Shown one piece after another: positions 396 to 59,027 of a DNA stretch of 64,000 nucleotides. The DNA is from Aphrocallistes beatrix (lineage: Eukaryota > Porifera > Hexactinellida > Sceptrulophora > Aphrocallistidae), in assembly GCA_963281255.1 (NCBI GenBank), contig OY725500.1:2971184-3035183 (forward strand). Reading direction: 5' to 3'. A program made the translations under genes and the position numbers. The notes below the pieces were generated by a model, which was not told the origin of the DNA, searched no databases, and was given only the letters and a program-made list of their open reading frames with translations. Position 1 is the stretch's first letter, and each line of letters starts with the position of its first letter.

Positions 396-1622
396 TTAAG
401 GTTGGTGTTTCCCATGCGAAACTTGTTTTTTATTAAAAATGTGCCCAAATTGCTTTTTTATCATTTTTAGATCCTTATAGGGGTTCTAAACAATAATCCC
501 GATTTTTATAACTCCAGCCCCAATATTTCGCCACTTTGAGCCACTTGTATCACCTGGTGTCGCTCTAAAAACGACACATTTTAAATGCGAAATGTCCCAC
601 AGCTCTAACTCCTTTAAACAGTGCCAGATCATCTTTTTTATGCTGATTTCATGCTCAGCACTGGATTTCCAGCAATTTGATATATATATTGACCATATTT
701 GGAAACATTTTTGTTTGACCGTGCCTAGCAACGGCCAGGAACTTTTTAACATTCCTAACCGTTGCTAGGAAAAGGCAACCAAAAATATTTCCAAATATGG
801 TCAATATATATATCAAATTGCAGGAAATTTAGTGCTGAGTACGAACTCAGTATTAAAATAACGACCTGGCATAGTCAAATAAAGTTATAGGTATGGGATT
901 TCGGCGGAAACTATCGGAAATTGTCATTTTTGGGCCCCCAGTGATAACTGTCAACTTTTTCACACTTTTGAAGGTGTCATGATGTGAAAATATTTGATAT
1001 GCCATATTTTGAAGTTAAGTACTACTATAAGTTGTTGATTGAGGATGTTTTGATGTTATATATTATCAGAATTCCGTAAAAACAAATGGAAATCAAGCAT
1101 TTCCGAAGAAAACTGCTTTGTAGCATGTTTTTAGCACTCAAAAAAATCAATTTTACAACGGAGGATTCTCTAGTTACAAAAGTCATAGAGTAAAAAACTC
1201 GATTGTTTTGGAAAGATCTCGTCACGTAGAATAAAATGATAGAGACAGATTTTCGATATTCTACTTTAGAAAAAAGTTAAAATATTTTTCCTTTCAAAAA
1301 TCTGCCTCTAAATTTTGTATAAACGAAATTTGAAAGAAAAAATTATTTAGGTTAAAATTGAAAATTATATTCCTATTATTTTCTTTATTCAACCATTTTG
1401 TGTAAGAATAATTGAGTAAAAGAGGCATTAGGCATTGAAGTTTCCTTGAATGTCCTCTATAATTTAGGTCATTTGGGAAAAAAATAATTTTTCTCTTACT
1501 TCTTGGGCTCCCGAAAAGTGTATTTTTGCAGATAACTCATCGAGAATAGTTTCCACAAAAAATTTCAGAAGAAAATAATGAAAACTTTAAAAGTTAGTTC
1601 TGGAAGGAAACACCAACCTTAA
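396..1622. mobile_element. K1: complete K-family TTAA element (non-autonomous)
   Basis: TTAA at 396-399 and 1619-1622 flanks a ~1.2-kb body whose ends are inverted copies of GGTTGGTGTTTCC. The centre (about 640-850) is itself an imperfect palindrome around the GCAACGG/CCGTTGC pair. TTAA duplications are known for Kolobok and piggyBac; I infer one of these superfamilies but see no transposase. Open frames inside, such as 486-752 minus, recur only because the repeat recurs and are not credible genes. Confidence 0.8.
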
Positions 1623-7310: not shown

Positions 7311-7920
7311 TATTAAAACTCGATTATTGTATACAACATATATACTATTAAAACTCGATTATTGTATACAACATATATACTATTAAAACTCGATTATTGT
7401 ATATATATATATATATCTTTAACGAATTGATTGAAGAAACTGCCGGGCGCAGAAGGCTGATTTTTGGCATGTGGGAATCTTTTGGCTATGGCTCCAGTAA
7501 GTTCTGAGTTCAGAGCAAAATGTCGACTCATCATGGAATTATGACGTCATTGTCACATTTTTAAAAGTTAAGCAACACAGTTATTCGAGCATAACTCAGC
7601 TATTATGGGAGATAGAAGGCTGAAATTTTAATAGAATCTGTATACTAACATACCTCACATATGATGCGACTTTCATCAAAAAATGATGACTCATCACTTT
7701 GTTATGACGTCATCATTACGCATCAAAAATTTTAAAATTGACAAATTTGGTGATTTTTCGAGTGAAATCGGTTTTAACACTAAGATGGACATATTTAGAG
7801 ATGTTATCTCCCTTATAATTAACCAATGTCACCTCCAGGCGACAGAAGGGAGCCTCCGGCGGACACAAAGTGTCCGCCAGCCGCGCAGCGCAAGCAAGCG
7901 AAGCGCGCTTGTATATAGTA
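7311..7920 (+). repeat. CRE repeat, copy 2 (best-preserved, with tandem head)
   Basis: Two extra copies of the ~40-base head unit (TATTAAAACTCGATTATTGT) precede a TA microsatellite, then the standard body with TGACTCA near 7686, TGACGTCA near 7543 and 7705, an unoccupied TTAA at 7818 (the site used by Z1 in copy 1), the GGCGGACAC hairpin and the GCGCGCTTGT end at about 7905. Confidence 0.8.
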
Positions 7921-10346: not shown

Positions 10347-11990
10347 ATGAGTAAGCGTCCCAGATCGAGTGTATGGTCCTATTTCACTGTGGATCCTAAT
10401 AATCAAGCTATTGCTATTTGTAAGGCTGATTGCAAAAATAACAAGGTCTGTAGAGGAAAAGATGGAGCTCAGAGAAAAGACTTCTCGACTAAAGCTCTTT
10501 GGATTCATTTGCAAAATTGGCACAAAGTAGACTATGATAGTGTTATTGATGAACAAATTGCGACTGAAGCAACAAAACAAGCAAAGATAGTTGAAAAAGA
10601 GCATCAAAAAGAGGTGTACTCACTCTCTACAATACAATTGACGTTACCAGAAACTAATGACAGTACCACTAAATGGAATTTAGATAGACCTGAACAGATT
10701 TTGGGTGAAAAACTATTGGTACAGTGGCTGTGTGACGGCTTATTGCCATATTCAACGGTTAGCAACGATCAGTTCCAGAAAAATGATTTCTCATTTAAGT
10801 ATAGGTTTTTTGTTCCATCAGAAAAAACAATTAGACAAAAACTGATCACCAACTTGTATAGACAAGTGCAATACAAGATAAAACAGTCTCTCGATGAAAA
10901 TGTTGTTGCTGTATATTTGATAACAACAGATATTTGGTCTAGCAAAGGACAACGATCTTTTATTAGTTATACCGGACACTATATTAATGTTAATTGGCAG
11001 AGAAAGATAGCAATTTAACGATGTATGCCATACGACAGCGCACATACTAGAGAAAGCACCGCTATGGTTTTGTCAGAATTTACAAAAAGCTGGTTTCTGC
11101 AAAATGTCCATTGCCTTGTTAGAGACAATGCAGAACCTAGTGAAAGGCTCTGAAATTGCTAACCAAGTCAGTTAGTTGCATGTGTCACATCCTCCATCTT
11201 ATTGTGAAACATGCGGTATTAGAGCAAAGTGGAATGAAGCTGATGAGACAACGCCTCAAAAAACTAGTTAAAAAACTCCGAAAACCAAAAGCAAATGCTA
11301 TTGTAAGAAAAATCCCGCAGGAATTAGGAATACCTGAAAAACTTTGATTCTTTGTGTGGAAACCAGATGGAATAGTGACTACTTGATGTTTGAAAGGGCT
11401 TTCGAACTAAAACTCGCCATTAGAGCCGCTGAAGATGATGCTCAACTAAATATCTCCACAGATTGTAAATTGACCCCCACTGACTTGGATCTTATCCCGA
11501 AAGTAATGAACCTCCTTAAACCCATTTTCGCTGCTACTTTATCTGTTGAAGGTGACCAAGCTTCAATTTCAGATATTATTCCTATCACTAAACGGATGAA
11601 AATGGAGCTCGAACAGGTACACGAATTTGGAATAGGAACGTCGAAGAGTAAATTATTAGAAAACATTCACAAGTATTTAGAGGGTCGTGATACCAGAGCC
11701 CATTTTGTCGATGTTGAAACAAGCGATCTCTATACATTTGCAACCCTACTAGACCCACGATACAAGGGATGTTTTTCCAAAAGAAAGAAAATGTTGAAAG
11801 AGCTAAACAAAGGCTTAAGTATCTAGTTAAAGATGTTCTAGATCTACGAAAATTTTGAAGCCGCTGATCCTACCCAAACACTTTGGATCCAGTTGAAGAG
11901 ATCAAGAAAGACAATCGCTCTAATTCATTATTATGGGAAGATTGTGTTCTCAGTGAGGATGACGAAGATGTACACTTACAAGGAATAAGT
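10347..11990 (+). pseudogene. hAT transposase (BED finger type), decayed
   Basis: hAT transposases cut and paste DNA in the nucleus using an RNase-H-fold core split by a helical insertion. The first block (10347-11018, 223 aa) has a BED finger at residues ~8-63 (CKADC ... H..H) and the conserved stretch ending TTDIWSSKGQRSF that contains the first catalytic Asp region. The second block (11156-11347) has CMCHILHLIVKHAV, and the third (11344-11826) has ETRWNSDYLMFERAF and TLLDPRYKG, all typical of the family. Stops/frameshifts at 11019 and around 11345 separate the blocks, and the C-terminal dimerisation (hATC) segment is missing after about 11826. Length before breakage ~490 codons against ~600-700 usual. 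Inactive. Confidence 0.85.
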
Positions 11991-14895: not shown

Positions 14896-15255
14896 TCAGA
14901 AGAGATGGAATCGGTTTAAAAGAAAGATAGACCTGAGTATCGTCGGCATATCAGTGCATGTCGGGGAGGTGAGACCTAATGAGGTCGAATAGAGGACTAG
15001 TATAGAGGCTAAAGAGAAGCGGACAAGACAAGAACCCTGAGGAACTCCGTGTTGGACCGGGATATTGGAGGAATTAGAACCCTTAATCGAGACGAATTGA
15101 GTCCTACCAGAGAGATAAGATTCAAACCAAGACAGAGAAGAGCCGCAAATGCCGAAATGAGACTGGACACGGTTGAGTAAGATGGTATGGTCGACGGTGT
15201 CGAAGGCTGAGCTAAGATCAAGAAGAACCAGAAGGGATACGTGTTGGCGATTCAT
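14896..15255 (-). pseudogene. LINE ORF2, RT catalytic palm
   Basis: Starts MNRQHVSLLVLLDLSSAFDT, with the first catalytic Asp in LLDLSSAFD, then VQHGVPQGS. The frame then slips: the second catalytic motif YADD is present at 14939-14950 on the minus strand but in another frame and just after a stop. All catalytic aspartates thus survive although the gene cannot encode one protein. Confidence 0.85.
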
Positions 15256-16195
15256 GCTGAGGACGATGTCGTTTGTGCGGAGTCTCTGTACTGTGGTGTT
15301 TACGATAGGCAGACTGCGTCCCGGGGAAGAGATGATGTATTGTGAGATGATTCACGACCTGGATGGATGCGGCCCTCTCAGTGATCTTAGAAATGAAAGA
15401 AAGATTGCTAAGTGGACGATAGTTAGAGAAGATGGGATCAAGATTTGGTCTAAGTTTGGGCAAGATGATGGCGCGCTTCCAGGGAGAAGGAAAATGACCA
15501 GTGGAGAGGGAACCATTTACGATTTTCGTAAGGATGGGCGTTAGGATGTGTAGAGATGATTTGACCAAGGATGCTGGGATAGGATCGAGGATGCAAGATT
15601 TATTAGGAGCAGAGGAAACAAGGGAAACAATTTCTTCCTCAGATAATTCTTTGAATTGGTGGAAAGTATGTTGGAATTCGATGTTTGAATTATCTGAGGG
15701 GTTAACGGAAGACGACGATGCATTTGAATCAATGGTGGAACGGATGTTATCTACCTTAAGAACAAAGAAGTTGGCGAGTTCCTGAGAAAGAGTAGCCTTA
15801 TCAGCATGAGGTGGTAGGACCTGTTGCTGGCGTAAGCCGAGAAGTGAGTTAGCCTTACGGAAGAGTGAGCGCTGGTCATGACAGGACTGACTGATACAAT
15901 CAGAATAGAAACTGCGACGTTCCCTGTTCATCAGGTCAGTCACAAGATTCCTCTGATGCTTGAATTCAGGCAAATGGTCAGGGTCATTAGACTGGCGCCA
16001 CTTCCGTTCAGCTTTCCTTCTCGCTCGCTTGGCCTGCTTGATGCTACTGGTGAACCAAGGGACACTGGGACAGGTGACTATGGTTTTGGACCCCCAGTTT
16101 GAGAAACACTGTACTAATGGGATGACGGACTTCAACTTCTCATATTCCATAAGAGTGATGGAGACAGGGTTTAAACTAAAAGAAATAAAAATCAT
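15218..16195 (-). pseudogene. LINE ORF2, endonuclease-RT linker and RT N-terminal half
   Basis: 325-codon frame. Residues ~45-130 are the basic linker typical of CR1-like ORF2 (PWFTSSIKQAKRARRKAERK). From ~170 on comes the RT: the LSEEEI, LDPIPASLVK and FPSPWKRAIILPKL motifs, then SNYRPLSNLSFISKITER and the HHLFPGTQSAYRKHHSTET block. It ends by frameshift just before the catalytic palm, which continues in the frame at 14896-15255. No endonuclease residues precede it; the first ~15 residues look like non-element sequence or a poorly conserved part. Confidence 0.85.
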
Positions 16196-21394: not shown

Positions 21395-21812
21395 TAGATA
21401 CAAGCGCGCTCCGATTGCTTGCGCTGCGCGGGTGACGGACACTGTTTCCGCCAGAGGCGCCCTTTGGGCGTCTTGGGTAACATTGATTAATTATAAGGGA
21501 GATAACATCTCTAAACACGTCTGTCCTACTGTTATATTCGATATCGCACGAAAGATCACCAAATTTGACAATTTTTAAAATTTTGATGCGTAATGATGAG
21601 TTATCATTTTATGATGATAGTTGTATCATATGTGAGGTATATTAATATACACATTCTATTAAATTTTCATGCCTTCTATCACCTAAAATAGCTGAGTTAT
21701 AGTAGAAAACTGAAATTTCTAATTCTAAAAAAGGAAGCAATGACGTCATAATTCCATGATGAGTCTACATTTTCGTCTGAGGTCAGAACTAAATCTAACC
21801 ATTCAATTATAT
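21395..21812 (-). repeat. CRE repeat, copy in minus orientation
   Basis: Starts with the GC tail ACAAGCGCGC..., the diverged hairpin GCGGGTGACGGACACTGTTTCC region, then the body including ATGATGAGTTATCAT and AATGACGTCATAATTCCATG near 21740. The head is replaced at about 21813 by TATGGAGAATTCAAGGTCAA, an end-fragment related to the giant palindrome's terminus. Confidence 0.7.
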
Positions 21813-23720: not shown

Positions 23721-24929
23721 TTAAGTTTGGCCTTTCATATAATAGCTAACTTTTGATTTCTCAAACGATTCATTTAATTTTTTCAGTGCAGAATTGAATC
23801 GCAGAGTTATCTGCTTAACTGCATTAATAATTGAAATATTGGAACAGATAAAATTTCTAAAAAAAATTTGGTCATTTTACAAGGAAGAAATCGGGCACAA
23901 TATGCTTACAATCCTTTGGAAACTTTTCAAATTCATTCGTAAATCGATGATCTAACGAATGAACAGACAGATTCTAGAAATTTTGAAAATTGTTAAAAAT
24001 TCACACCAAAAAACCCGAGGAATTATATTTTTAGTAATTTGGACACGATTTTTTTCATAATTCTCTTTTTATTCATAATATCAAAAATATGTCTGTTCAT
24101 TATGTTCTACTCTTCGAAATCTATCAAAAACCGTTGAGTTTTTGCACCTATGTTGAATTTTCAAAAGGTTATCACCTTTATAATTGCTGAAACAAAAGTC
24201 TCAGAAAAAAGGATTTAGAAAATATTTATATGAGTCCCTCAATTCCAATTAGTTTTAACTGCTTTGGAATATTAAATAACATGCAAATATCCTTGTTCGA
24301 CAACTTATAGCTGTACTTAACTTCAAAATATGGTATATCAAAGTTTTTCACCATCAAAAGTGTGAAAAACTGGTCATTGATGACTGGCCACCCAAAAATA
24401 ACCACATTCGCTAGTATCCGCAGGAATCCCAGATCAATAACTTCATTGAACCATGTCAGATTATCGTTTTAATACTAAATTCGTGCTCATCACTAAATTT
24501 CCAGCAATTTGATATATATATATTGACCAAATTTAGAGATTTTTTGGATGTCCGTGCATAGCAACGGCCAGGAATCCTTTTACGTTCCTGGCCGTTGCTA
24601 GGAACCCGCAGCCAAAGAATTTCTCCAAATGTGTCCAATATATAAATCAAATTGCTGGAAATTTAGTGCTGAGCACGAATCGTACATTAAAATGATGATC
24701 TGACATGGTTCAAAGAAGTTATGGATATGAGACATTTCGGTTCAAAAATGTGTCCTTTTTTGGGCGACACCGGTGGTACAAGTGACTCTAAGTGGCGAAA
24801 TATTAGCATTGAAATTCAAAAAGTCGAAATTAATGTTTAGAACTCCTTTAGGGATCTAAAATTGATTAAAAAGGCCTTTGGCAAATTTTTGATAAAAAAC
24901 AAAATGCCCATAGGAAAGGCCAACCTTAA
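23721..24929. mobile_element. K2: K-family TTAA element (CCTTTCC subtype)
   Basis: TTAA at 23721-23724 and 24926-24929; ends GTTTGGCCTTTC / GAAAGGCCAACC. The Z copy it interrupts reads CTAGCACATC before and TGGTA after it; uninterrupted Z copies at 2890-2905 and 42905-42920 read CTAGCACATCTTAATGGTA (second with one change), a clean empty site. Confidence 0.9.
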
Positions 24930-31604: not shown

Positions 31605-32318
31605 CAAGGGTTGTCCCATAATTCTTAGGACTGTTGAATATAGAAGTTTCAGATTACTATACTACTATAGTCTTAGTGCTAATTCTATAACTAGAATGTA
31701 TTATGCTACTATAGGCATATCGAATTCTACTAGATTGAAGTGACTTCTAAATAATTCTTGATTAATATACATTTTCAGTTTTTTACCACCATGGAAAAAT
31801 CGGTGAAAGGGAAGCGTAGTGTTATGTGGTTTCTCTGGAAACAAGGGAAGTCGAGTAAAGAGATTCTTCGTGAAATGCGAGAAGTTTACGGGGACGATTG
31901 CCCTTCCAAATCCACTGTTTACTTGTGGATTGAACGTTTCGAAGATGGCTGGAATACGGCTGATGACTACGGACACCCGGGCCGTCCAATATCCACGGGA
32001 TACCAGGGGAATATCGACCTGGTCTCCCGTACAATTGATATAGATAGACGTCTTACTGTAAGGCAGTTAGAAGAAACCCTGGATATACCCAAAACTACCA
32101 TCCATCGCATTCTATCCGAGGACTTGAGAATGAGCCGTGTTGCTGCTAGGTGGGTGCTAAAACTTTTGACCGATGAGAATAAGCGCCAACGGATTGATGT
32201 TTGTCGTCAATTACTGAAATCATGGAGAGAGGAGAAGAACTTTCTTGATCGCATAGTTGCTGAATATGTGCATGCGGCGTGTCTGTATGCATATGATGGC
32301 ATGTCTGTATGGATATGA
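31605..32318 (+). mobile_element. Second mariner-like element, 3'-truncated
   Basis: CAAGGGTTGTCCCATAATTC at 31605, preceded by TA, looks like a mariner inverted repeat; a transposase N-terminal half follows at 31791. No right end was found, and the sequence changes to unrelated short repeats (ATGCATATGATGGCATGTCT, GTATGGATATGATAG) at about 32270. Confidence 0.6.
31791..32318 (+). pseudogene. Mariner-like transposase, paired helix-turn-helix half only
   Basis: ATG at 31791 (MEKSVKGKRSVMWFLW) fits better than the upstream ATG at 31758. First helix-turn-helix: ILREMREVYGDDCPSKSTVY; hook GHPGRPIST; second helix-turn-helix: LTVRQLEETLDIPKTTIHRI; then the linker WVLKLLTDENKRQRI. Coding is open throughout, but it stops at FLDRIV, immediately before the first catalytic Asp (usually VTGDE), so it could encode only a DNA-binding protein. 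A different lineage from the mariner at 27841. Confidence 0.8.
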
Positions 32319-35391: not shown

Positions 35392-35632
35392 TTAAGGTTG
35401 GCCTTTCCTATGGGCATTTTGTTTTTTGTCTAAAATTTGCCAAAAGTTCTGTTTAATTATCTTTAGATCCCTAAAGGGGTTCTAAACATTAATTTCGATT
35501 TTTAAAATTTCAAGACTAATATTTCGCCACTTAGAGCCACTAGTACCACCTGGTGTCGCCCAAAAAAGGACACATTTTTGAAGCGAAATGCATCATATCC
35601 ATAACTTCTTTGAAGCATGTCAGATCATCATT

Positions 35633-38015
35633 TTAAGGTTGGTGTTTCCTTCCAGAACTAACTTTAAAAGTTTTTATTATTTTCCCCTGAAATTTTTTGT
35701 AGAAACTATTCTCGATGAGTTATGTGCAAAAATACACTTTTCGGGAGCCCAAGAAGTAAGAGAAAAATTTTTTTTTCCCAAATAACCTAATTTATAGAGG
35801 ACATACAAGGAAACTTCAATGCCATATGCCTCTTTTACCCAATTATTCTTACACAAATGGTTGAATAAAGAAAATAAAAGGAATAGAATTTTCAATTTTA
35901 ACCCAAAAAAATTTTTCTTTCAAATTTTGTTATACAAAATTTAGAGGCAGATTTTCGTGAGGAAAATATTTTAACTTTTTTCTAAGTAGAATATCAAAAA
36001 TCTGTCTATCATTTTGTTCTACGTGACGAGATCTTTCTAAAACCGTCGAGTTTTTAACTCTACGACCTTTGTAACTAGAGATTCCTCCTTTGTAAAATTA
36101 AATTTTTTAAGTGCTAAAAACAGGCTACAAAGCAATTTTCTTTGGGAAAGGCTTGATTTCCATTTATTTTTACGGTATTCTGATAATATATAACATCAAA
36201 ACATCCTCAATCAACAACTTATAGTAGTACTTAAGGTTGGCCTTTCCTATGGGCATTTTGTTTTTTATTAAAAATTTGCCAAAAGTCCTTTTTAATCATT
36301 TTAGGATCACTAAAGGGGTTCTAAACATTAATTTGATTTTTAGAATTTCAATGTTAATATTTCGCAACTTAGAGCCACTTGTACCACTTGGTGTCGCCTA
36401 AAAAAGGGCACATTTTTGTCTCATATCCATAACTTCTTTGTACCATGTCAGATCATCATTTTAATGCTAAATTCGTGCTCAGCACTAAATTCCCAGCAAT
36501 TTGATATATATATTGGACATATTTGAAGAAATTCTTTGGCTGCGGGTTCTGGTCAGAAATGTGGAAAAATTCCTGGCCGTTGCTATGCACGGACATCCAA
36601 AAGATTCTCCAAATATGGTCTATATATATATCAAATTGCTGGAAATCTAGTGCTGAGCATGAATCTAGTAATAAAATGATGATCTGACATGATTCAAAGA
36701 AGTTATTGATCTCGGATTCCGGCGGACACTATCGAATGTGGTTATTTTTGGGTGTCCAGTCAGCAATGACCAGTTTTTTACACTTTTGATCGAGAAAAAT
36801 TTGATATACCATATTTTGAAGTTAAGTAGTGCTATAAGTTGTCGATTAAGGATATTTGCATGTTATTTAATATTCCAAAGCAGTTAAAACTAATGGAAAT
36901 TGAGGTACATATATAAATAATTTCTGAACCTATTTTCTGAAACTTTTTCTCAGCAATTATAAAGGTGATAACTTTTTGTAAATTCGACATAGGGGCGAGA
37001 ACTCAACGGTTTCTGATAGATCTCGAAGAGTAGAACATAATGAAGACAAATAAAAAGAGAATTATTAAAAAATAGTGTCAAAATTACTAAAAATATAATT
37101 CCTCTGGTGTTTTGGTGTGATTTTTTAACAATTTTCAAAATTTCATAAATCTGCCTGATCATTAGTTAGATCATCGATTTATGAATCAATTTGAAAAGTT
37201 TCTAAAGGAAAGCATATTGTGTCCGATTTCTTTCTTGTAAAATGATCAAATTTTTTTAAAAAAAATTTATCTGTTACAATATTTTAATTATTAATGCAGT
37301 TTTGCAGATAACTCTGCGATTCAAATCTGAACTGAAAATATAAAATGAATCGGTTGAAAAAGTCTATAGTTAGCTATTATAGGAACGGCCAACCTTAACT
37401 TCAAAATATAACATATCAAATATTTTCACATCATGACACCTTCAAAAGTGTGAAAAAGTTGACAGTTATCACTGGGGGCCAAAAATGACCATGTCATATA
37501 GTTTCCGCCGAAATCCCATACCTATAACTTTATTTGACTATGCCAGGTCGTTATTTTAATACTGAATTCGTACTCAGCACTAAATTTCCAGCAATTTGAT
37601 ATATATATTGACCATATTTGGAAATATTTTTGGTTGCCTTTTCCTAGCTACGGTCAGGAATGTTAATAAATTCCTGGCCGTTGCTAGGCAAGGTCAAACA
37701 AAAATGTTTCCAAATATGGTCAATATTTATATCAAATGCAGGAAATCTAGTGCTGAGCATGAATACAGCATTAAAAAGATAATCTGGCACTGTTTAAAGA
37801 AGTTAGAGTTGTGGGTCATTTCGCATTTAAAATGTGTCGTTTTTAGAGCGACACCAGGTGATACAAGTGGCTCAAAGTGGCGAAATATTGGGGCTGGTGT
37901 TATAAAAATCGGGTTTATTGTTTCGAACCCCTATAAGGACCGAAAAACGATAAAAAAACAATTTGGGCACATTATTAATAAAAAACAAGTTTCGCATAGG
38001 AAACACCGACCTTAA
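35633..38015. mobile_element. K nest, middle element
   Basis: TTAA at 35633-35636 and 38012-38015, ends GGTTGGTGTTTCC and GGAAACACCGACC. Itself interrupted at ...AGTAGTAC-TTAA-CTTCAAAATA, which is unbroken in K1 (about 1012-1018 on the other strand context) and in K3 near 26528. Confidence 0.85.
36231..37397. mobile_element. K nest, inner element
   Basis: TTAA at 36231-36234 and 37394-37397, ends GGTTGGCCTTTCC and GGAACGGCCAACC. Uninterrupted; ~1.16 kb, no coding capacity. Confidence 0.9.
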
Positions 38016-39084
38016 TGCTAAATTCGTGCTCTGCACTAGGTTTTCAGCAATTTGATATATATATATTGGACACATTTCGAGAAAAATTTTGGCTTTGGGT
38101 TCCGAGCAACGGCCAGGAATGTGAAAAAATTCATATAATTTTTTTCTTAGGCACGGACAACCAAAAAATTCTCCAAATATGGTCAATATATATATCAAAT
38201 TGCTGGAAATTCAATGCGGGACACGAATTCAGCATTCAAATGATGATCTGACATGGTTCAAAGAAGTTATTGAACTGGGATTCCGGCGGACACTATCGAA
38301 TGCGGTTATTGCGGCCAGTCATCAATGGCTAGTTTTTCACACTTTTGATGATGAAAATTTTTGATATACCATATTTTGAAGTTAAGTAATGATATAAGTT
38401 GTTAAATAAGGATATTTGCATGCTATTTAGTATTCTAAAGCAGTTAAAACTAATGAAAATTGAGGCAAATATACTTATTGAACGTCCTAAGTATAAATAT
38501 TTTCTAAATCCTATTTTCTGAGACATTTTTTACAGCAATTATAAAGGTGAGAACTTTTTCTAAATCAACACAGGGGCGAAAACCCAACGGTTTTTGATAG
38601 ATCTCGAAGAGTAGGACATAATGAACGGACAGATTTTGATATTACGAATAAAAAGAGAAATATTAAAAAAATAGTGTCAAAATTGCTAAAAATAAATTTC
38701 CTCGGTGTTTTGGTGTGAATTTTTGACAATTTTCAAAATTTCAAGAATCTGTCTGCTCATTAGATAGTCATCGATTTATAAGAGATTTTTAAAAGTTTCC
38801 AAAGGGTTGTTATATTGTGTCCGTTTTCTTCCTTGTAAATTGACCAATTTTTTTAAAAAAAATTTTATCCGTTGAATTGTTTCGATTATTAATGCAGTAT
38901 TGCAGATAACTCTGCAATTCAAATCTGCACTGAAAAAATAAATGAATCAGTTGAAAAAGTCAAAAGTTAGTTATTATAGGAAAAGCCAAACTTAAACACA
39001 TCCCTGGTAAGTAACCTATATTTGTAGTATATATCAAGCACAACTTGTTGATGACAATTCAAAACAAAATTTGTATCCATTGGC

Positions 39085-39805: not shown

Positions 39806-42439
39806 ATATAGACCAAGGATGAAAATTTTAAATGTATGATTGATTTCGCCCTTAAGGCCAGTACTGGTAGCTGACGCTATTTGTTTTTGAAATTTTCGAT
39901 TTGAAGTTTTTGTGTATTTTTAAGTTCATATATGTATTCTTAATACTCGGACGGAACAGCTTTTGGAAATTCAAAGTAGTTTTACCATTATGTCACCTTT
40001 AGTAGGTGCCAATTCAATGGGTATGATTGGGGATAAAAATTTATTTTAAGGTTGGCCTTTCCTATAATAGCTAACTTTTGACTTTTTCAACCGATTCATT
40101 CAATTTTTTCAGTGAAGATTTGAATCGCAGAGTTATTGCAAAACTGCATTAATAATTGAAATAATTCAACAGATAAAAATTTTTTAAAAAAAGTTGGTCA
40201 TTTTACAAGGAAGTAATCGGACACAATACGCTTACAACCCTTTAGAAACTTTTCGAATTCATTCATAAATCGATGATCTAACTAATAAACAGACAGATTT
40301 TTGAAATTTTGAAGATTGTTAAAAAATAGTGTCAAAATTACTAAAAATAAAATTCCTCGGGTGTTTTACCGGAGGAATTTTATTTTTAGGAAATTTTGAC
40401 ACTATTCTTTTAATAATTCTCTTTTTATTTGAAATATTAAAAATCTGTCTGTTCATTATGTCCTACTCTTCGAGCTTTATCAAAAAACGTTGAGTTTTCG
40501 CTCCTATGTTGAATTTACAAAAAGTTACCATTATAATTGCTAAAAAAAATTCTCAGAAAATGGTAAATATAAAAATTTATATATGTCCCTCATTTTCTTT
40601 CAGTTTTAACTGCTTTGGAATATTAAATAACAGGCAAATATCCATATTCGACAACTTATAGTAGCAGTACTTAAGGTTGGTGTTTCCCATGGGACACTTG
40701 TTTTTTAATAAAAATGTGCCCAAATTGTTTTTTTATCATTTTTAGATCCTTATAGGAGTTCTAAACAAAAATTCCGATTTTTATAACTCCAGCACCAAAA
40801 TTTCGCCACTTTGAGCCACTTGTATCACTTGGTGTCGCTCTAAAAACGAAACATTTTAAAACGAAATGTCCCACAACTATAACTTCTTTTAACAGTGCCA
40901 GATCATTTTTTTTAATGCTGAATTCTACTAGATTTCCTGCAATTTGATATATATATTGACCATATTTAGAAACATTTTTGTTTAACCGTGCATAGCAACG
41001 CCAGGAATTTTTTCACATTCCTGACCGTTGCTAGGAAATGCAACCAAAATATTCTCCAAATATGATCAATATATATATCAAATTGCTGGAAATCTAGTGC
41101 TAAGCACGAATTCATTATTAAAATAACGACCAGGCATAGTCAAATAAAGTTATAGATATGGGATTTCGGCGGATACTATCGGATGTGCTCATTTTTGGAT
41201 CCCCAGTCATAACTGACAACTTTTTCACACTTTTGAAGGTGTCATGATGTGAAAATATTTGATATGCCATATTTTGAAGTTAAGTACTACTATAAGTTGT
41301 TGATTTAGGATGTTTGGATGTTATTTAATACTAGGATACTGTCAAAACTAAAGGAAATCAAGCCTATCTGAAGAAAATTGCTTTGTAGCATGTTTTTAGC
41401 ACTAAAAAAAATCAATTTTACAAAGGAGAATTCTTTGGTTACAAAGGTCGTAGAGTAAAAAACTCGACTGTTTTTCGAAAGATCTCGTCATGTAGAACAA
41501 AATGATAGAGACAGATTTTTAATATTCTACTTTAGAAAAACGTTAAAATATTTTTCCTTACGAAAATCTGCTTCTAAATATTGTAGCAGCGAAATTGGAA
41601 AGAAAAAATTAATTGGGTTAAAACTGAATATTCAAATCCTATTATTTTCTTTATTCAACCATTTTGTCCAAGAATAATTGAGTAAAAGAGACATAAGCCA
41701 TTGAAGTTTCCTTGAATGTCCTCTATAAATTAGGCGATTTGGGAAAAAAAAAAATTTTTCTTGCTTCTTGAGCAGTTTATCTTTTAAGGATCAAAAAATA
41801 TCTTTTTGTTCTTTTTAGGATTAAAAAAATATATTATATTGGGATTTTTATTGATATAAATTCAAAAATTTGAAACGTTATTGTACTCGAAGCCATCTGA
41901 AACTCCCAATATTGGCTAAGAATTTAAAATTTATCATACTTCGAATACAATCATGTAATAATACGCTAATGTAAAATATCCAACCATTTCTTAGTCATAC
42001 AGGGTGCGATTTAAGTTCTGTCCCCAATTTAGACTACCACCAATCCAAGCATAACCAGTGTATAATTATTATACAAGCTATTTTTAAGTTATAATGACAC
42101 TTTACTGTAAACATCTAACTTAATTACACAAAATAACCAGATTCTGAAATTTTATTCCCAATCGGGCAAGAGAGGTGTGAAATTATTGAATTATTCAAAA
42201 CCGGGCGGACGCATGCAGAAATAATGAAATTGTTGAAGTTTCCTGAATCCAGGCAAAATTTCGTCTATCGTACTATTAGGAGACAAAGTAGGATACATTA
42301 AATAGCAATTCATAATTCGTATTGTAACATTATCTCTAATCTATACTTGAATTTTCAATGATACAAAGTGATTATTCGCAAAGTTATGGGTATTTATAAA
42401 TGGGACAGAACTTAAGGATACCGCCTGTGAAAAATCCAT

Positions 42440-42747
42440 AGGTTGGCGAAAGCCGGTTCAGTGGCACAAAGGTCACATAAGTTGGGATACGGTGCAAAAA
42501 GGTCGGCGGGATCGAGGAGACAATCAAGCTCCCACTTAAAAAAGGGGGTAATGTTATAGTAATTGCGGTCATTCGGCTTCTCATCAAGCAACAGTATAGG
42601 TATAGTGATACGTATAAGTAGCGAACGGCTCGACCCAGAGTTACGTTCCTTCAGTACACAACTTAATTGTATTTTCTAACTTTGTTTACGTGTATTGATT
42701 ACATATAGCGACTATATTAATTCAACCAGTGTCGTATTCTCGCAACA
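42440..42747 (+). mobile_element. LTR retrotransposon 3' end: polypurine tract plus LTR (~196 bp)
   Basis: AAAAAAGGGGG at 42537-42547 resembles a polypurine primer tract, followed by an LTR-like block starting TGTTATAG (42552) and ending CTCGCAACA (42747). Upstream DNA can be read as the basic tail of a pol frame (RSAGSRRQ, SHLKKGG) as in Gypsy-type elements. GTAA occurs next to both LTR edges, but a solo LTR would not keep the purine tract, so this is more likely a truncated insertion. It is absent from Z1. Confidence 0.5.
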
Positions 42748-43459
42748 GTAATGGCTTACAGCATATATCAAGAATAGAGATAAATAAGATGTTAAGCGTG
42801 GGCAGGTAGTGCAATTAAAAAATATTGAGACATGCCAAACAGTTTTTGGCTCGCATTTCTAGTTTTTGAGTTACAGCGTCTCAAAGTCGGTATTTTTCGT
42901 TTTTCCCACGCACATCTTAATGGTAAGCCCTCCTCCACTCTGTGATTTTTTTGAAACACATGTATGGATCAAATGCTTCGAAAATTTATTCATATATAGT
43001 CTATAAAATTTGCAATCGCATAGAACCAAAAGAAAGTTAAAATAACCAAAATTGTTAATTTTACAGGGGTTCGAAAAAAATTTGCAAAAAAATGGCGAAA
43101 AAAGCCCGATTTTCTTTGGAAATCAGCAATAAAATCACAAATTTATAAGATATCGAAAATCGAGTGGTCCTACGCTCATCGCCTAATGATATGGAACAAC
43201 TCCTGAAATTTTCAAACATCTATCTCAAAGCAATTTTGAGTTAAAATTTTTGAAAGACGGTCAATTTTGGAATTTTGAAGTCCCGAGATATAGGGATTTG
43301 AAGTTTTGATGTTAAGAACGATGTAAAATGAGCTATTAACGATAAAAAAAACAACCATGGGCATTTAATCGAATGTATACTAATGAATTAGATGTATTCC
43401 AACAGATTTTGGTGAAAATAGCAAAATTATACTGAAAATTCACAAATTACATTGAGGCC

Positions 43460-43886
43460 TGTTGCATGAAAAAATGCCCCCCTCGTGAAAAAATGCCCCC
43501 ACCATGGATATTCATCTAATATGGGGGGGGGCAAAATTTAATGGAGTTAGCGTGAAAAATTGCCCCCCCCCATGAAAAAATGCCCCCACCATGGATATTC
43601 TTGAGTTTAACACTAAATATTGCTGATACTATTTAGATACGATACATTTATGAAAGTCATTGTTATTACTTCACACGACTAGTTTGTTGATTTGCAATGC
43701 TTTAGTAAACGAATAGAAGCCAAATAGCATTCAAAATGTTTTGTATAAGCATTGGCATACTTTAGAATATCCATGGTGGGGGGCATTTTTTCACGGGGGG
43801 GCAATTTTTCATGCTAACTCCATTAAATTTTGCCCCCCCCCCATATTACATGAATATCCATGGTGGGGGCATTTTTTCATGCAACA
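43460..43886. mobile_element. Six-level nest: Ginger-like foldback MITE (427 bp)
   Basis: Inverted ends TGTTGCATGAAAAAATGCCC, flanked by GGCC (43456-43459, 43887-43890). Z1 at 3432-3446 reads TGAGGCCCCTAAC, a single GGCC, so the 4-bp duplication is confirmed by an empty site. TGTNR ends and 4-bp duplications are described for Ginger transposons. Arms contain G9/C9 tracts and repeated CCATGGATATTC. Confidence 0.8.
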
Positions 43887-44614
43887 GGCCTCTAATCCCG
43901 AATATTTTGAACCAATTAGGGAATATAATTCATATTCTTAGCACTACAAAGTATAATTCATCGGTTTAGAATGAATAAAGAGCATCTAAGAAGTATATTA
44001 GGAATTTAGAGCGAGAGTCTACGACTTTTAGTTTTCAAGTTAGGATTTACGAAAAATGCTACGTCATCACGTGATAAAAATTTAAAACTTAGCATTCCAT
44101 CACATGTAGTACATTTATTATTTAAGAATCAGATATATACCGTCTTGAAAAGTATATTAGGAATTGAGGGCTAAGAATTTGGGTGTATATTTCCCGAGAT
44201 ATGGAGGAATCTGTTTTTGGACCATAAATGGGGGCTTTGAGTGAATTTTGGAGATAAATGCTTTGAACTTCCAAAATAATCATGTTGAGTGCTTCAAAAT
44301 TTCTGTATACATTGCTAGTGACTATTGCATTGTTTTTTGAGTATAATAGCTACTTTTGGGAACTTATTTCATGACAAGATTCGCCATTTTCTAATATATT
44401 CAAAGTTCTCCATAGAATTTGTATTACTATAAAATCGATGATAAGTCAAGAAATATTTACTTTTTGACAAAGGGATGTTTGAGGAACCTATATATTATCA
44501 TATATATCCTTTCATTTAAGATTATAATAGATTATATATCTTCAATAGTTTTTAAGCATTGACATCGAGCACTTTCGGGGCCATAGAGAGGTTTGATGTC
44601 CGGAATTTTACCTA

Positions 44615-45115
44615 CAACAAGCGCTCTTCGCTTGTTTGCGCTGCGCGGCTGGCGGACACTTTGTGTCCGCCGGAGGCTACCTTCGGTCGCCTGGAGGTGA
44701 CATTGGTTAATTATAAGGGAGATATCATCTCTAAATATATCCATCTTAGTTTTAAAATCGAAATCACTCGAAAAATCGCCAAATTTGTCAATTTTAAAAT
44801 TTTGATGCGTAATGATGACGTCATAACAAAGTGATGAGTCATCATTTTTTGATGAAAGTCGCATCATATGTGAGGTATGTTAGTATACAGATTCTATTAA
44901 AATTTCAGTCTTCTATCTCCTATAATGGCTGAGTTATGCCCGAATAACTGTTGCTTAACTTTTAAAAATGTGACAATGACGTCATAATTCCATGATAAGC
45001 CGACATTTTGCTCTGAACTCAGAACTTACTGGAGCCATAGCCAAAAAACTCCCACATGCCAAAAATCAGCCTTCTGGCCCGGAAGTTTCTTCACACAATT
45101 CGTTACAGATCATTT
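44615..45115 (-). repeat. CRE repeat, minus orientation, inside Z2
   Basis: Complete body: GCGCTCTTCGCTTGTTTGCG tail, hairpin at about 44652-44672, TTGATGCGTAATGATGACGT at 44801, TGAGTCA at 44836, AATGACGTCATAATTCC at 44976, and GTTTCTTCACACAATTCGTT head at 45085. Ends in ATTTTAACCGAATAATGGTC, a scrap of the 9250-type MITE. Confidence 0.8.
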
Positions 45116-45963
45116 TAACCGAATAATGGTCAGACCCATTTTTTTTAATGTCAGGCGATGTTTTTCCAGGGCGGTATCGTTAAATCGCACCCTGTATATA
45201 AAAAATTTATATTATAATCTAAATTCTAGAAAAAAATTAAATCAGAAATGAAAAACTTTTAGAAGTAAGAAAAAAATTTCTTAAAAGATAGCCTGTTCTT
45301 GAGCTCCCGAAAAGTGCATTTTTCAAATAACTCATCGAGACAGTTTCCACAAAAAAAGTCAGGAGAAAATAATGAAAACCTTTTGAGTTAGTACTGGAAG
45401 GAAACACCAACCTTAACTTCAAAATATTGTATATCAAAAATTTTCCTCATCAAAAGTGTGTAAACTGGTCATTGATGACTGGCCACCCAAAAATAACCAC
45501 ATTCGATAGTATCCGCCGGATCCCAGATCAATAACTTCTTTGAACCATGTCAGATCATCATTTGAATTCTGAATTCGTGTCCCCATTGAATTTCCAGCAA
45601 TTTTATATATATATTGACCATATTTGGAGAATTTTTTGGTTGTCCGTGCCTACCAACGGCCAGGAATTTTTCACATTCCTGGCCGTTGCTTGGAACCTGC
45701 AGCCAAAAGGTTTATCCAAATGTGTCCAATGACATGCTTCAAAGAAGTTATGGATATGATACATCTCGGTTCAAAAATGTGTCATTTTTTGGGCGACACC
45801 AGGTGGTTCAAGTGGCTCTAAGTAGCGCAATATTAGCATTGCAATTCTAAAAATCATAATGAATGTTTAGAACCATCCCTAAAGGGGTTCAAAAAATTAT
45901 TAAAAAGTTATTTTGGCAAATTTTGATAAAAAACAAAATGCCCATAGGAAAGGTCAACCTTAA

Positions 45964-47359: not shown

Positions 47360-48905
47360 TATTAAAACTCGATTAATGTTTGATTGTGTCTATATACATA
47401 TCTCTGTAACGAATTGATTGAAGAAACTGGAAGATCCAGAAAGCTGATTTTTGGCATGTGGGAGTTTTTTGACTATGAATCCAATAAATTCTGATCTCTG
47501 ACGAAAATGTAGACTCATCATGGAATTATGACGTCATTGTCACCTTTTTATAATGAGAAATCTCATTTTTCGACCATAACTCAGTCATTTTGTGATAGAA
47601 GGCTGAAATTTTAATAGAATATGTATATTAATACATCTCACATATAACACAACTATCATCAAAAAATGATGACTCATCACCGTGTTATGACGTCATCATT
47701 ACGCATCAAAATTTTAATAATTGACAAATTTGGTGATTTTTGAGCGATATCGATTATAACAGTAGTACAGGCGTATTTAGGGATGTTATCCCCCTTACAA
47801 TTAATCAATGTGGCCCCAGGTGCCCAAAGGGCGCCTCCGGAGAACAGATTGTCTCCGCCAGCGGCGCAGCGGCAAACATGCGAAGCGCGCTTGTATATAT
47901 ATATACTATATGTATAAATATTTATCACTGTAACGAATTGATTGAAGAAACTGCCTGTCACAGAAAGCTGATTTTTGGCATGTGGGAGTCTTTGGGTATG
48001 GCTCCATTAAGTTCTGAGCTCAGAGCAAAATGTCGACTCATTATGGAATTATGACGTCACTGTCACATTTTTAAAACTTAAGCAATATAGTTCTTCGAAC
48101 ATAACTCAGCCATTATTGGAGATAGAATGCTGAAATTTTAAGAGAATGTGTATATTAGTATACCTCACTTATGATGCAACTATTAAAAATGATGACTCAT
48201 CACTCTGTTATGATGTCATCATTACGCATCAAATCTTTAAAATTCAAAAATTTGGTTATTTCTCGTGCGTTATCGATTATAGCATTATGACAGACGTGAC
48301 GTATTTAGAGATGTTATCTCCCATATAATTAACCAATGGTGACCACAGGCGCCCAAAGGGCGCCTCCGGCGGACACAAAGTGTCCGCCAGCCGCGTAGCA
48401 CAAGCAAGCGAAACGCGTTTGTGTATATATATATATATGTATCTGTAACGAATTGATTGAAGAAACTGCCGCCAAAGGCTGACTTTTGGCATGCTGGAGT
48501 CTTTTGGCTATGGCTCAACTAAGTTCTGACCTCGGACGAAAATGTCGACTCTACATGGATTTATGATGTCATTGTCACCTTTTTTATAATTTGAAATTTC
48601 AGTTTTTCGACTATAACTCAGTCATTTTAGGTGATAGAGGCTGAAATTAAGTTGGAATGTGTACGTATATTAATATACCTCACTTATGATGGAACTATCA
48701 TGAAAAAATGATGTCTCATCACTCTGTTATAACTATATCATTACGCATCAAAATTCAAAAAATTGACAAATTTAGTGATTTCTCGTGCGATATCGATATT
48801 AAAAGTAGGATAGCGTATTTTAAAATTAAATCTCCATTTTAATTAATCAATTTCTCCTCAAGCTCCCGCAGGGCGCCAGCAAGCGAAGCGCGCTTGTATT
48901 TTATA
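47360..48905 (+). repeat. CRE repeat, head-to-tail trimer
   Basis: Three consecutive direct copies: 47360-47895, 47896-48425 and 48426-48905. Each has the AACGAATTGATTGAAGAAAC head behind a TA microsatellite, bZIP-type sites in the body, and the GC tail ending GCGCGCTTGTAT (GCGTTTGTGT in the second). The third copy has lost the hairpin. Junctions are TA microsatellites, so unequal exchange or replication slippage is a likely origin. Confidence 0.8.
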
Positions 48906-57676: not shown

Positions 57677-59027
57677 CCTATTTGGCTTACTGCTCAGAAA
57701 ATGTATGTGCGGATGAATAAATTAAGAATTACTAGTAGGAAGAAAATGTATGAAATATTGTAGGTAATAGAATATAAACTAACAATGATACTTATCCTAT
57801 ATCATACACTGCATTTTATCGTATTCAAATTTATTTCAAACATAATGGTTTTTTACAAATAGACTTGAAGTAATCCATGGTAAGGTAAAATTCGTACCTT
57901 GAATAGGCTATAGTTACGTAGGCTGTGAAACGATCAGAATCTTATTTCTGACCCAATGATTCTAAATATCTGATATCAAAAAGGCGATTACCCGAGCATT
58001 ATATAAACAAGCGCACTTCGCTTGCTTGCTCTGCGCGGCTGGCGGACACTTTATGTCAGCCGGAGGTTCCTTTCGGTCGCCTGGGGTCACATTGGTTAAT
58101 TATAAGGGAAATAGCATCTCTAAATATGTCTGTCCTACTGTTATAATCGATATCACTCGAAAAATCACCAAATTTGTCAATTTAAAAATTTTTGATGCGT
58201 AATGATGACGTCATAACAAAGGGATAAGTCATCACTTTCTGATTATAGTTGTATCATATGTAAGGTATGTTAGTATACATATTCTATTAAAGTTTCAGCC
58301 TTCTATCTCCTATAATGACTGAGTTATGCTCGAATAACTCTGTTGCTTAACTTTTGAAAATGTGACAATGACGTCCTAATTCCATGATGAGTCGACATTT
58401 CCTCTGAGCTCAGAACTTACTGGAGCCATAGCCAAAAGACTCCCACATGCCAAAAATTAGCTTTCTATGACCGGCAGTTTCTTCAATCATTTTGTTACAG
58501 ATATATATATATATTTACTATGGGGAATTCCAAGTCAAAAAACCAATCATTTCACCACCATCAACCGATTTGTCTGAAATTTGCTGTGCGACAGGGCACT
58601 GATATGCCTTTACTTTTGTGAAAATTTCAGATCAATCGGCGATGTGGTTTTTGAGTTATGACGTCACAAAATTTTGAATTTTTGCTGTTTGACCAAGGAT
58701 TTTTCACAATGGTAAAATCACCATTCCATTTTAAACTAAATTAACTCGAAAAATATTCTTCAAATTCTTTCATAAATTGCAATACTTATTTATGTTTTTA
58801 CACATGGAGAATACGAAAAACTTGAGAAAATTAAGTTTTAAGTTCCTTTTCTTTGTGGAAACTGGTAGTGAAACCAACTCCCGAAGCAAACCGGAACTAT
58901 GACGTAACAAAAATGTATATTTTGGAAGCTGTTTTATTTTTGAGTATTTTACTGTTTATATTCATAATTCATTGTTTAGAAAAATTCATTTGGTTTCCAT
59001 ATGTTCTCTTTGAGTTATTTACATTTT

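Follow-up and report, generated by a model that had tools for sequence, protein, structure and literature searches.

How many transposition events does one short piece of sponge DNA record, and does their order at that place give the ages of the families concerned? The question is raised by a 5.9-kb locus (40046-45963) in a 64,000-nucleotide stretch of the Aphrocallistes beatrix genome (contig OY725500.1; C14:2971184-3035183; hereafter, the window), where six DNA transposons lie each inside the previous one. Each level was sought on its own and each empty site genome-wide (100.5 Mb in 28 contigs), the boundaries were checked and divergence was measured. The nest is real, and its insertion order is correct and matches divergence, which serves as an independent clock; the locus is a good example of an already known phenomenon, a clean insertion-order record of a well-known kind.

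Structure and insertion order of the nest

From the outside inwards, the original prediction had read two TTAA elements (K1 and K2), a hAT-type miniature inverted-repeat transposable element (MITE), a mariner-type MITE, a further TTAA element (Z2) and a Ginger-like MITE. This reading was confirmed: the inverted ends and target duplications of K1, K2 and the hAT-, mariner- and Ginger-type elements were checked (Table 1), and the duplications of all six insertions are legible. Unoccupied paralogous sites, which had been claimed for most levels, include in the window uninterrupted copies of K1 and K2 and four K2 copies in which the site of the hAT-like MITE is empty.

Two parts of the claim needed amendment. 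The six nested levels stand, but two further scars bring the nest to at least eight events, not six. Similarly, the proposed age order holds for the insertions at this locus – where it matches divergence – but not for the six families, since the window also contains reciprocal nests, such as the one in which K1 sits in K2; insertion order at one locus must not be taken for the order of families. With six insertions in five target-duplication classes, all readable and in a fixed order, the locus forms a compact calibration point, usable as a test for automatic nest-unravelling and family-age programs.

Table 1. Levels of the nest, reference copies and the second nest (window positions)
Feature	Position	Strand	Details
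K1, outermost level	40046-45963	+	5'-GG..CC-3' ends adjoining TTAA; own sequence ~1.18 kb
K2, second level	40671-45416	+	in central TTAA of K1, at 597 in the 1209-bp reference
hAT-like MITE level	41765-45303	+	element 41773-45295; own sequence 326 bp; 8-bp duplication TTCTTGAG
Mariner-type level	41998-45196	+	element 42000-45194; TA duplication; own sequence ~427 bp
Ginger-like MITE level	43456-43890	+	element 43460-43886; TGT..ACA ends; 4-bp duplication GGCC
K1, uninterrupted reference	23721-24929		1209 bp
K2, uninterrupted reference	396-1622		
Second K nest	35392-38995	-	K1 > K2 > K1, reciprocal order; K1 in central TTAA of K2

Classes of the inner elements

CAG-type ends are the rule for hAT elements, and TGT..ACA ends for Ginger elements. 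The hAT-like MITE combines CAG-type inverted ends with an 8-bp duplication that is perfect in six of nine copies, has one mismatch in two and is absent in one. For the mariner-type element, which has the TA duplication and inverted ends of Tc1/mariner, ends were found at 25 of 29 loci (both ends at 11), with TA adjoining every one. The copy in the nest is an internal-deletion derivative of relatives 1.0-1.3 kb long; as regards a DDE_3-type transposase in these longer relatives, three pieces gave no Pfam match, and among the protein relatives of one such piece two of six carry PF13358. A Sleeping Beauty match was weak (E 0.016).

In the Ginger-like MITE, both TGT..ACA ends are present in all 20 fetched copies (L070-L089) and an identical 4-bp duplication in 18, a combination that fits Ginger, although the ends by themselves also fit other TGT..ACA groups, such as IS481EU. 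Its targets read GNNC in 20/20, mostly inside AGNNCT. For Ginger1, a 4-bp target duplication is likewise published (PMC10045372).

Arrivals of K2 in K1

Is the outermost step of the nest one insertion into another, or did K1 already carrying K2 spread as a single mobile element, which would leave five levels rather than six? The left K1-K2 junction occurs at the identical site and in the identical orientation at four loci (the window, C7, C3 and C8; of 1185 candidates, 40 were scored). The right junction occurs at three (the window, C7 and C8; 40 of 1524 scored), and the C8 nest has a Z element in K2 at the matching site. The K1 hosts of the window and C7 share 19 derived bases, and of the four K2 inserts, three cluster in the tree (support 0.73-0.75), as a composite element would predict. 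Yet 16-23 derived bases are also shared pairwise by K1 copies without K2, the internal branches of the K2 cluster are near zero, and the fourth K2 places elsewhere. The K1 hosts themselves are scattered: that of C8 groups with L005 and L006 (support 0.996), at 4.8-5.5%, and lies 12.1% from the window host, while host pairs among C8, C3 and window/C7 share 0-5 derived bases. Moreover, each element is common apart from the other, K1 with no K2 in it as well as K2 at places other than K1. Despite the 19 shared bases, a composite is thus very improbable once host ancestry is considered; because the K1 hosts differ in ancestry, the four loci represent at least three independent insertions of K2 into the central TTAA of K1, and probably four.

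Such repeated arrival suggests that TTAA elements land preferentially in the central TTAA that K1 and K2 each have, in which case the first nesting step would be targeted rather than random. We regard a true preference as a tentative proposal, and a somewhat unlikely one. The four-locus count is biased in site and orientation, because the query was built on that very junction; as the query also set how K2 is oriented relative to K1, we claim no preference for either orientation. In an unbiased sample, the central TTAA was occupied in 3/40 copies and a control TTAA at 273 in 0/40 (p = 0.24; p = 0.25 when copies lacking the TTAA, 2/38 for the test and 9/39 for the control, are excluded), so that preference is not proven. 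Other TTAA sites are used as well, among them K1 ~967. Judging from coordinates alone, five of the 40 best K2 copies lie at a TTAA inside another K element (at 186, 219 and 957 of K2, and at 535 and 1146 of K1). These five exceed expectation if K elements make up 1.7% of the genome, a share estimated from candidate counts (binomial 0.0006), but the excess may reflect clustering of K elements in the same compartment, without targeting. Repeated use of one internal TTAA does offer a countable test of self-targeting by K elements. At L112 (C3:4380881-4381081), an element that begins AGTTAAGCAAATT follows the central TTAA in one copy of K1.

Comparison with known systems and other features of the window

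Jiang and Wessler reportedly described nested MITEs in rice and maize in 2001. In published nests, younger elements interrupt older ones and so give a relative order, and plant long terminal repeat (LTR) retrotransposons are described as nesting into their own family and into preferred regions (PMC2517846, PMC5657132, PMC6911290); what distinguishes the present nest is six DNA-transposon insertions in 5.9 kb, with every target duplication readable and an order in agreement with divergence. The Kolobok superfamily (PMC9587614) is among the closest systems to the K elements, and the plant DcSto MITEs (PMC3695323) are similarly found preferentially near other MITEs, whereas here TTAA elements with Kolobok-type ends are mutually nested at several TTAA sites. 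Among papers on nested insertions, MITEs, the Kolobok superfamily and templated sequence insertion, taken from outside subscription journals and preprints and judged mainly by titles and the openings of abstracts, none dealt with K elements nested in one another at a central TTAA.

Templated sequence insertion (PMC5110952) also copies a short stretch of a distant locus; here there is microhomology at the junctions, and the copy lies inside a transposon, in another organism. An unlikely alternative for a truncated retrotransposon copy draws on its polypurine tract, its TG..CA terminal repeat and the TGGC on either side, as a 4-bp duplication would give.

ARAGORN found no tRNA in the window, and Rfam nothing at its thresholds; a weak sub-threshold match at 45168-45233 was taken as chance. 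Among six long frames of the window, Pfam matched one (31758-32318, a Mos1-type helix-turn-helix), and two others were blank again on repeat. By eye, the frame 10347-11018, which has no Pfam match, resembles a hAT transposase, and 15218-16195 a non-LTR reverse transcriptase.

A 494-bp repeat family has window copies at 44617-45110, 58006-58502, 7415-7912, 47403-48862 and 21400-21790. It starts ACAAGCGC and ends GTTACAGAT, without obvious inverted ends, and a short interspersed nuclear element (SINE) or a Helentron was considered by eye. AT-rich microsatellite often borders its copies, a likeness – confined to these borders – to the microsatellite-targeted SaTar elements, which are plant derivatives of Mutator-like elements (MULEs) in non-nested arrays (PMC5907723).
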